Positions 46,277 to 50,430 of a stretch of DNA of 64,000 bases are shown here, in pieces (within the stretch, counting starts at the first letter, position 1; the number at the start of each line of letters is the position of its first letter). This stretch comes from Halothiobacillus neapolitanus c2. GTDB taxonomy: Bacteria; Pseudomonadota; Gammaproteobacteria; Halothiobacillales; Halothiobacillaceae. The stretch lies in NCBI RefSeq assembly GCF_000024765.1, contig NC_013422.1, positions 2,297,501 to 2,361,500 of the forward strand, written 5' to 3'. The translations under genes were made by a program, and so were the position numbers. The notes below the pieces were generated by a model. It saw only the letters and a program-made list of their open reading frames with translations. It did not search any database and had not been told where the DNA came from.

Positions 46277-46471
46277 GGTGGCCTTCATTGAATGAGTAAT
46301 GGTGTGTGGATCGGGGCGTGCCTGCGCGTTCGGCAGGGCCGCAGACAGATGTTAATATGGCTTCAAGCACAGGGGTATTCACTGGCCTTGCCCTTGAACA
46401 CCCCCATCGCCACAACCCATGCCATGGCAAATCACCATGACTTGCAAACCTGCATCAGGAAAACGGAACGT

Positions 46472-47287
46472 ATGAAGCACTCGCCCGTCGCATTGAATTT
46501 TGAGGAATCCGGAGGTGGGTTGCCCGTCATCATTATGCACGGTTTGTTCGGCTCTCTGGCGAATTGGCGCGGTGTGGCCCGCAATCTGGCGGATACTTAT
46601 CGCGTTATCAACCTTGATCTTCGCAACCATGGCCGCTCACCCTGGGCAGACGATCTGAGTTATGAAGCCATGGCCGCCGATGTGCTGGCGCTCATGGATC
46701 GACTCGGTCTTGAGCGGGCCAAACTGCTCGGTCACTCTCTCGGCGGTAAATTGGCGATGGTACTGGCAGACCAGGCGCCGGAGCGTTTTACGCAACTGGT
46801 GGTGGTCGACATCGCCCCCAAAGCCTATCCCGCCTGGCATCAGGATGTCTTCGCGGGATTACGAGCGGTCGATCTGGATCATCTGGCATCACGAGAACAA
46901 GCGCGAAGCCAAATGGGACAATTCATCTTCGACCCGGAAGTTCGCGCCTTTCTTGCCGCCAATCTCAGCCATAACACGCAATCTGGACAGGGCGCATGGC
47001 GCTGGCGGTTCAATCTGGACGTGTTGCAGCAGTCTTATCTGGAAACGTCACAAATGCCCGACCTACAGGGATTTTTCTGCGGGCCGGCTCTATTTGTCCG
47101 TGGCGCCGGCTCCGCCTACATCGAGCCGGACGATCGCTCGATCATCATCCGAGACTTTCCCGGCGGCTGCATACACACCCTCAAGAAAGCCAAACACTGG
47201 CCACATGTCGAAGACCCGCAGGGCTTCATGAACGCCATACGACACTTCTTTATTGACGGCTGCAAAGGAATCAATAAAACATCCTGA
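46472..47287 (+). CDS. Alpha/beta hydrolase, YbfF-like esterase
   Basis: Single-domain hydrolase with HGLFGSLANWRGVARNLAD (oxyanion side), LDLRNHGRSPW, nucleophile GHSLGGKLAM (Ser near residue 91) and the terminal histidine in KKAKHWPHVEDPQGF, matching E. coli YbfF and related acyl-CoA or short-chain esterases. The physiological substrate is unknown. The frame reaches back to 46292, but the ATG at 46472 begins the conserved fold and gives 271 residues. No terminator is visible before the gene-poor region that follows. Confidence 0.85.
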   Translation: MKHSPVALNFEESGGGLPVIIMHGLFGSLANWRGVARNLADTYRVINLDLRNHGRSPWADDLSYEAMAADVLALMDRLGLERAKLLGHSLGGKLAMVLADQAPERFTQLVVVDIAPKAYPAWHQDVFAGLRAVDLDHLASREQARSQMGQFIFDPEVRAFLAANLSHNTQSGQGAWRWRFNLDVLQQSYLETSQMPDLQGFFCGPALFVRGAGSAYIEPDDRSIIIRDFPGGCIHTLKKAKHWPHVEDPQGFMNAIRHFFIDGCKGINKTS

Positions 47288-47445
47288 AATAAATTCTCTA
47301 AAAAATAAGGACATGTAGACTAATTCGCCATCTATCTCATGTCCGCCATGCACAATAAAGTGGATTCCGCCCTCATCTTTTACACGCAGTGCATTCAGAA
47401 ATCCGGCCTCAAATTCGAGCAAACCTATTCTAGCGCCACTCCTGA

Positions 47446-47461
47446 GTAGGAAAATTCCTAC
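47446..47461 (+). promoter_or_regulatory. GacA/UvrY-like box upstream of the GGA-rich RNA
   Basis: GTAGG-AAAATT-CCTAC is a perfect five-base inverted repeat with a six-base spacer, the same geometry as the GacA box (GTAAG-N6-CTTAC) found upstream of rsmY/rsmZ/csrB genes. It stands about 130-180 bases before the start of the dense GGA region, a distance typical of these upstream activating sites. No GacA homologue is in the window. Confidence 0.5.
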
Positions 47462-47580
47462 AAAATAAATCGTAAAATCTGACGGAACTCTGCTCGATTC
47501 CCACTATGACCCGTCACAATCCTTCGGCATGATGCACCTGTGTTTAGTACACAGCGGGCAGGAAGCCCCATCGCCTTGAT

Positions 47581-48105
47581 CAAGGATTGATTAAGGCGCT
47601 TACCGGAAAGGATTCGATACTGCTCACGGAAGAGTAGCGAAGGTATGCATGAAAACCTGGCGGATGGATTCGCCTCGGACGTCACATCAGGACGATGGGA
47701 CACACAGCCCAGGATGGGCTACCCAAGGATGAATCAGGCAAGGATGGAATACACGGAAGACAGTACTCGGAACCGAATGGAATCGGCACCCCAAGGAAGA
47801 CCTCTAAGGAAGACCTCTAGGTACGACCATTAGGGACACCCCTCAAGGATGACAATTGGGGACAAATTCACAGGATGAATGATTAGGATCATCGGCAAGG
47901 AAAGTCCGGCAAGGACGATTCAGGATCATGAATTGAACCGTCGCTCATGACGAGCGCCATGAGCCAGGATTGCTCTGCTAGATCGAGACTCATGCGTAAG
48001 AGTTCGGTCGCCCACAGAAGGGCTGTGCTTTTCCACCAAAAAACCCATGACGGGGGAAATCAGGATCGAACCGCAGGATGGGTTCCATGCCACTGGATGG
48101 CATTT
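47581..48105 (+). ncRNA. CsrB/RsmZ-like CsrA-sequestering small RNA (candidate)
   Basis: No convincing gene covers this stretch. On the plus strand it has about 30 GGA triplets, roughly 17 of them AGGA, as AAGGATG, CAGGATG, AGGGACA and AAGGAAG. Several sit in perfect hairpin loops: AGCCC-AGGAT-GGGCT (47706-47720), ATTCA-CAGGA-TGAAT (47866-47880), ATTCA-GGATCA-TGAAT (47918-47933), GAACC-loop-GGTTC with CAGGAT in the loop (48068-48085) and ATGCCA-CTGGA-TGGCAT (48087-48103). This is the hallmark of CsrB, CsrC and RsmZ, which bind many CsrA dimers and free target mRNAs. Transcript ends are uncertain: I found no clear promoter hexamers and only a weak hairpin with four Ts near 48011-48033, so the RNA may end there or run on toward queA. 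Confidence 0.72.
47793..47818 (+). repeat. 13-bp tandem duplication inside the GGA-rich RNA
   Basis: aaggaagacctct is repeated without a gap (47793-47805 and 47806-47818), duplicating one AGGA site. Confidence 0.9.
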
Positions 48106-48212
48106 CTCACGAAAGCCGCTTACCAGCGCACACTGTTTATGAACTTACTTCTCATCGGTCTTTTTTGAACCGATTGCTGCCGTCCATCGCCCCCTGATAG
48201 ACTGCGCGCGCC

Positions 48213-50430
<2,218 letters not shown>

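Follow-up and report, generated by a model that had tools for sequence, protein, structure and literature searches.

The locus described here, which is unannotated, lies between a ybfF-like esterase gene and queA in a stretch of 64,000 nucleotides (the window) of the Halothiobacillus neapolitanus c2 genome. An earlier note on this DNA had proposed that positions 47581-48105 encode a regulatory RNA of the CsrB/RsmZ type. Genomes of the family (27 in all) are referred to by genus: g1 is the genus of the window, g2 and g4 are related genera and g3 is a sister genus. The features of the locus are as follows.

46292-47287, plus strand: ybfF-like esterase gene, the upstream neighbour in conserved synteny, outside the RNA
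47445-47462, palindrome, no strand assigned: GacA/UvrY-type box of 18 bp, AGTAGGAAAATTCCTACA, matching GTARG-N6-CYTAC
47505-47533, plus strand: probable -10 region, with the candidates TATGAC (47505-47510) and CATGAT (47528-47533), chosen by eye in an alignment of the promoter region
47541-48110, plus strand: predicted CsrB-type RNA of about 570 nt (ends approximate) with 32 GGA and 18 AGGA, based on the counts, on conservation and on the lack of a conserved ORF
47556-47568, plus strand: GGA hairpin GGGC-AGGAA-GCCC, the first of the series; relatives in g1 and g4 have counterparts
47579-47591, plus strand: GGA hairpin ATCAA-GGA-TTGAT, identical in the two closest relatives
47685-47697, plus strand: GGA hairpin CATC-AGGAC-GATG, identical in the two closest relatives
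47706-47720, plus strand: GGA hairpin AGCCCA-GGA-TGGGCT, inside a weak partial Rfam CsrB match
47773-47786, plus strand: GGA hairpin CCGA-ATGGAA-TCGG, identical in the two closest relatives
47866-47880 and 47879-47892, plus strand: two adjacent GGA hairpins from the perfect-hairpin count
47961-47975, plus strand: GGA hairpin GAGC-CAGGATT-GCTC from the perfect-hairpin count
48068-48085, plus strand: GGA hairpin GAACC-GCAGGATG-GGTTC, within a 3' block at 48044-48105
48087-48110, plus strand: 3'-terminal GGA hairpin ATGCCA-CTGGA-TGGCAT followed by TTTCTC, a probable weak terminator
48213-49316, plus strand: queA, the downstream neighbour in conserved synteny, outside the RNA

The flanking genes had been named as a ybfF-like gene and queA, and the NCBIfam matches agree. 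queA scores 464.9 bits (cut-off 324). For the upstream esterase the best model, PRK10673 ('esterase'), which we take to be YbfF, gives 195 bits and is below its cut-off of 399.

The GGA content of the plus strand is exceptional. The earlier note had estimated about 30 GGA and 17 AGGA in 47581-48105, with no enrichment on the minus strand. Counting over these 525 nt confirms this, with 31 GGA and 17 AGGA on the plus strand; for the minus strand, read as TCC and TCCT, the counts are 3 and 0. The mean over all 525-nt windows of the 64-kb stretch is 6.4 GGA, and the maxima outside the locus are 13 GGA, 18 TCC, 6 AGGA and 5 TCCT. Thirteen GGA are held in the loops of perfect Watson-Crick hairpins (stem of at least 4 bp), where at least five such hairpins had been claimed; the example quoted at that time, AGCCC-AGGAT-GGGCT, is found at 47706-47720. 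There are no GGA-loop hairpins on the minus strand of the locus, and the best 600-nt window elsewhere, on either strand, contains five. Dinucleotide shuffles of the locus give 1.9 +/- 1.4, and none of 100 reaches 13. The GGA hairpins extend from 47556 to 48103, the last occupying 48087-48103. The originally proposed span is thus GGA-rich as described, but its ends are slightly short, since the first hairpin starts at 47556 and the box at 47445-47462 lies outside it.

A palindrome of the GacA/UvrY type is the usual upstream signature of CsrB/RsmZ-type RNAs. The box here reads AGTAGG-AAAATT-CCTACA. It is the sole match to GTARG-N6-CYTAC in the 64-kb window (0.02 expected) and one of only two in the 2.58-Mb genome (2,582,886 bp). 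The other, at C1:1036855, was rejected as the promoter of a Csr sRNA as there is no GGA enrichment beside it. The GacA box consensus is given as TGTAAG-N6-CTTACA (PMC4950607), and the UvrY site of Escherichia coli csrB as TGTGAGAGATCTCTTACA (PMC4682653). Nine of the 12 fixed bases of the consensus agree with the box, and the two inner mismatches are symmetric (GG/CC for AG/CT). A scan with the sigma-70 consensus found no promoter in this region, and the -10 candidates were picked by eye; the start site, at about 47516 or about 47540, is therefore a tentative placement. This would put the box approximately 60-90 bp before the start, a distance similar to that quoted for rsmY (-75; PMC4950607) and different from that for csrB (about -183; PMC4682653).

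At the other end, the 3' block (48044-48105; query 645-706) is matched in the nucleotide search in some relatives within the genus as well. The 3'-terminal hairpin has counterparts in G001 (GGCCACAGGATGGCC-TTTTCTC) and G007 (GGCCAGGATGGCC-TTTTCTG), and the T-rich tail that follows it is better in some relatives.

We compared the locus with the corresponding region of related genomes. Of 40 relatives searched at the nucleotide level, 34 had a match of some kind at E <= 1, many of these matches being weak and chance-like; matches to the box and the bases that follow it (query 47 onward) occur in g1 and g4. The order ybfF-like gene, box, GGA-hairpin RNA and queA is found in all 21 readable loci (ten in g1, ten in g4 and one in g2). 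Nineteen of these were read once the loci had been put in the proper orientation, and L190 (G041, g4) and L185 (G010, g2) were added; G040 (64% complete, no queA found) and the five g3 genomes are outside this count. Each of the 21 loci carries, at the matching place, a box of the form GTA.G-N6-C.TAC. They contain 17-33 GGA and 6-18 GGA-loop hairpins each. The count begins 70 bases past the start of the box and runs almost to queA, covering less sequence in L185 and L190. For 20 loci none of 100 shuffles had as many GGA loops as the real sequence; for L009 one did. The GGA loops, whose fate in relatives with conserved flanking genes had been proposed as a check, are kept in these relatives. 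In a contig search, at least nine AGGA in 300 nt occurred only in L034 and L037 among at least 80 queA loci in the matches listed, some of which had little upstream sequence; these two duplicate the genomes G003 and G010, so each was counted once. A 5' hairpin at window positions 47541-47556 presents GGA in its loop in several relatives (for example, GTGTTCGGAAACAC and GTGCTTGGATGCAC), and not in the genome of the window.

The structure was examined in an alignment of the ten g4 sequences, using 15 GGA-loop hairpins (stems of 2-7 pairs) taken from the RNAalifold consensus. The loop GGA is present in 10/10 rows for 14 of the 15, and in 8/8 of the rows that possess the remaining hairpin; the final base of the loop is variable. 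Pairing holds in 97.9% of 620 cells, compared with 29-36% in slid structures. Double changes affect six pairs (11 cells), compared with 2.5 pairs (3.0 cells) in shuffles and at most one pair under a slid partner. The number of further pair types shows no excess in this alignment (13, compared with 12.5 when shuffled). These figures are to be read with the proviso that the hairpins were chosen from the same alignment, that most pairs are invariant and that the rows are related. The clearest covariation is in helix 9, whose AGGA loop is closed by the stems GCACCC/GGGTGC, GCGCCC/GGGCGC and GCGTCC/GGACGC. Global fold energy offers no guidance: the single sequence as a whole has no exceptional stability (z -1.5), and its minus strand does better (z -2.95). 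In the minimum-energy fold of the window RNA, 13 of the 32 GGA are fully unpaired; G residues within GGA are unpaired more frequently (0.46) than other G (0.24).

The earlier note had also suggested running the Rfam models of the CsrB/RsmY/RsmZ type. None reached its gathering cut-off. In the 64-kb window nothing was found at the family cut-offs, and below them there is a partial match to CsrB at 47684-47720 (16.5 bits, cut-off 71). Neither there nor in any of the 20 relatives that were scanned did a family of clan CL00106 attain its gathering score. Below the cut-offs, L016 gives a full-length CsrB match (34.3 bits, E 5e-6, cut-off 71) and L010 a CsrC match (34.6 bits, E 4e-7, cut-off 61). 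Other matches within the CsrB clan, in L019, L185 and L017, are weaker (E 0.18-0.71). E. coli csrB, included in the same search as a control, scored 380 bits. With scores below the cut-off, the RNA is not assigned to any Rfam family. Csr sRNAs are described as usually lacking sequence conservation (PMC11882849).

We also looked for further copies. Searching the genome for three spaced AGGA returned 67 matches, seven of them inside the predicted RNA; such a pattern would overlook a short sRNA whose AGGA are fewer or more widely spaced. By their matched letters, the AGGA runs at C1:612083 and C1:2395328 resemble short tandem repeats and were discarded. A cluster at G000:C1:2290256-2290390 (L181:1740-1900, equivalent to C1:2290239-2290399), about 7 kb before the window, has seven AGGA in 300 nt. 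It is intergenic, with ilvE-like and thiS-like neighbours, and includes hairpin-like GGA stretches. It was rejected as a second sRNA, since it lacks a box and the closest relative does not have several of its GGA.

Second boxes occur in five g4 genomes, and there are two further boxes in G010. There is no GGA-rich RNA beside the extra boxes of G014, G018, G021, G024 and the two of G010, and these were not retained as sRNA sites. In g4 the second box (L183, L221, L222 and L223) is located approximately 120 bp upstream of a comEA-like helix-hairpin-helix gene (named by eye), whose start region carries AAGGAGGTAGGA. This gene is possibly both a direct Gac target and a CsrA target. In G010 (g2; L219 and L220) one extra GacA-type box follows a second GacA-like gene at a distance of about 320 bp.

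The protein partners of such an RNA are encoded in the genome. csrA, whose presence had been named as a check, scores above two NCBIfam cut-offs, and the closest solved sequence is a 'Carbon storage regulator'. CsrA was found in 23 of the 27 family genomes. Three draft genomes that carry the RNA, G002, G003 and G024, gave no CsrA match. A LuxR-type response regulator at genome positions 1940522-1941157 has UvrY/SirA/GacA as its best family, with 199-201 bits, below the curated UvrY cut-off of 280. Its gene (L184:1520-2158, minus strand) adjoins a CYTH-domain-like gene and a fabH-like gene (both named by eye); elsewhere uvrY and gacA stand beside uvrC, which is not the case here. A close relative of this regulator (at least 57% identity) is present in 22/22 family genomes of g1, g4 and g2. 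Several hybrid kinases are encoded in the genome, none above the cut-off of the model searched, presumably that for BarA. FliW, an alternative means of CsrA control, was found in none of the 27 family genomes.

The situation in g3 is different. All five genomes keep CsrA. Four have no match to the regulator at E <= 1e-20 and one has a 37%-identical protein. The strict box, TGTARG-N6-CYTACA, is absent from 5/5 g3 genomes, and also from 5/10 g1 genomes (including that of the window) and from G040. Within 2.8-3.0 kb upstream of queA in three g3 loci (L186, L187 and L189) there is neither a box nor an AGGA-rich stretch; G013 provides only about 190 bases, and G019 is outside this reading. We saw no ybfF-like gene in the g3 stretches upstream of queA either. 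The neighbourhood of queA has thus changed in g3 and the RNA could lie elsewhere, which weakens a reading of g3 as a clean loss. The joint loss of regulator and box in g3 would fit a dedicated link from Gac to the sRNA, which it does not prove.

Other explanations of the GGA run must be weighed. It could be a long queA 5' leader or the 3' end of the ybfF-like mRNA, that is, a CsrA-regulated untranslated region and not a stand-alone RNA. We consider this improbable. In its favour, the run lies between two genes of the same strand, the consensus scan found no intrinsic terminator, including between the GGA run and queA, and RsmW of Pseudomonas aeruginosa is described as derived from a 3' untranslated region (PMC4950607). 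Against this, a conserved box and a promoter-proximal block belonging to the locus itself follow the ybfF-like gene, and the GGA-rich part is closed before queA by the conserved 3' GGA hairpin with its T-rich tail. The g2 locus L185 also speaks against it: about 670 bases separate the end of the ybfF-like gene from the box, and the RNA is followed by a strong hairpin and a run of seven T, with about 470 more bases before queA. Moreover, 32 sites would seem far beyond the needs of an mRNA leader.

It is scarcely credible that the run reflects chance or a compositional purine bias with no function. Composition does raise the expectation, the dinucleotide shuffles keeping about 21 GGA, but the placement of GGA in loops is far above that of shuffles in 21/21 loci, and some stems show compensatory changes around invariant GGA loops, with box and synteny also conserved. 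Equally hard to credit is a short protein gene, for which the plus strand offers two open frames, 47645-47833 and 47947-48168 (62 and 73 amino acids). Neither has a Pfam match. The former is interrupted by stops in both nearest relatives and by indels of 1, 2 and 13 bases; the latter has stops in G002 and is open in G001 over the aligned part. With two ORFs and two relatives, three of the four comparisons are broken and one is open, and there is no conserved ORF.

The locus is thus almost certainly a Gac-controlled sRNA of about 570 nt that would sequester CsrA in the manner of CsrB. The GGA loops, their conservation and the presence of csrA all support the type of RNA originally suggested, and the GacA/UvrY-type box was found in addition. 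We propose that a GacA/UvrY-type response regulator, phosphorylated by a presumed sensor kinase on a presumed input signal, would bind the palindrome at 47445-47462 and switch on transcription of a stand-alone RNA of some 570 nt, from around 47541 to around 48110. This RNA would form a string of short hairpins and single-stranded linkers bearing the 32 GGA sites. By binding many CsrA dimers at once it would free the mRNA targets of CsrA, as do CsrB/CsrC and RsmX/Y/Z. The earlier note had suggested that such an RNA, if real, would act on carbon storage, motility and biofilm as the central post-transcriptional switch. Such a regulon is carried over from E. coli and Pseudomonas and may apply here by analogy.

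The closest known systems are CsrB and CsrC of E. coli (RF00018 and RF00084). These also have many GGA and AGGA, many of them in the loops of short hairpins, a UvrY-type palindrome upstream, and the form of a single intergenic gene. Counted in the same manner, the 369 nt of E. coli csrB contain 22 GGA, 14 AGGA and seven GGA-loop hairpins, whereas the RNA here (about 570 nt) has 32, 18 and 13, respectively, and no Rfam match above cut-off. The neighbours also differ: syd and yqcC for E. coli csrB, queA and the ybfF-like gene here. RsmX, RsmY and RsmZ of Pseudomonas (RF00195 and others) share the GGA hairpins and an upstream GacA box (TGTAAG-N6-CTTACA). The RNA here is far longer than RsmY (the RsmY model has 121 positions), and seven GGA motifs each are reported for RsmY and RsmW (PMC4950607). 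Pf1, Pf2 and Pf3 of Pseudoalteromonas fuliginea are likewise Csr sRNAs of a non-model gammaproteobacterium, with 25, 21 and 9 GGA; Pf2 and Pf3 are described as found through GGA content together with a promoter and a terminator (PMC11882849). These are three copies, in contrast to the one clear copy here, which has the higher count. The 32 GGA exceed Pf1 and the literature values for CsrB (22) and CsrC (14); we make no claim of a record.

The RNA is apparently new for this group and is not modelled in Rfam at its cut-offs. Among the matches listed from open-licence PMC articles for Halothiobacillus and Guyparkeria, titles and the first parts of abstracts describe no such RNA. BarA-UvrY orthologs have been proposed to transcribe CsrA-antagonist sRNAs throughout the gammaproteobacteria (PMC4682653), and an RNA of this kind is therefore expected here and not surprising. 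The example illustrates that, outside well-sampled groups, such RNAs escape the Rfam cut-offs, and the set of 21 genomes could serve as the seed of a new model.

A more far-reaching version is tentative and, in our view, rather doubtful. This would be an extra-large sponge (about 570 nt with 32 GGA, perhaps 13-16 CsrA dimers) that is the only Csr sRNA of these bacteria, kept in three genera between the ybfF-like gene and queA, and tying a Gac-type signal to autotrophic carbon metabolism. The sister genus, which has CsrA and no FliW, would have lost or replaced the regulator, the box and perhaps the RNA. If true, this last part would point to an unknown form of CsrA control.

H. neapolitanus c2 is a model for carboxysomes and CO2 fixation. 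In an autotroph, 'carbon storage regulation' may have a different meaning from that in E. coli, and a CsrA-sequestering RNA at this locus, if true, would provide a genetic handle on the post-transcriptional control of carbon flow.
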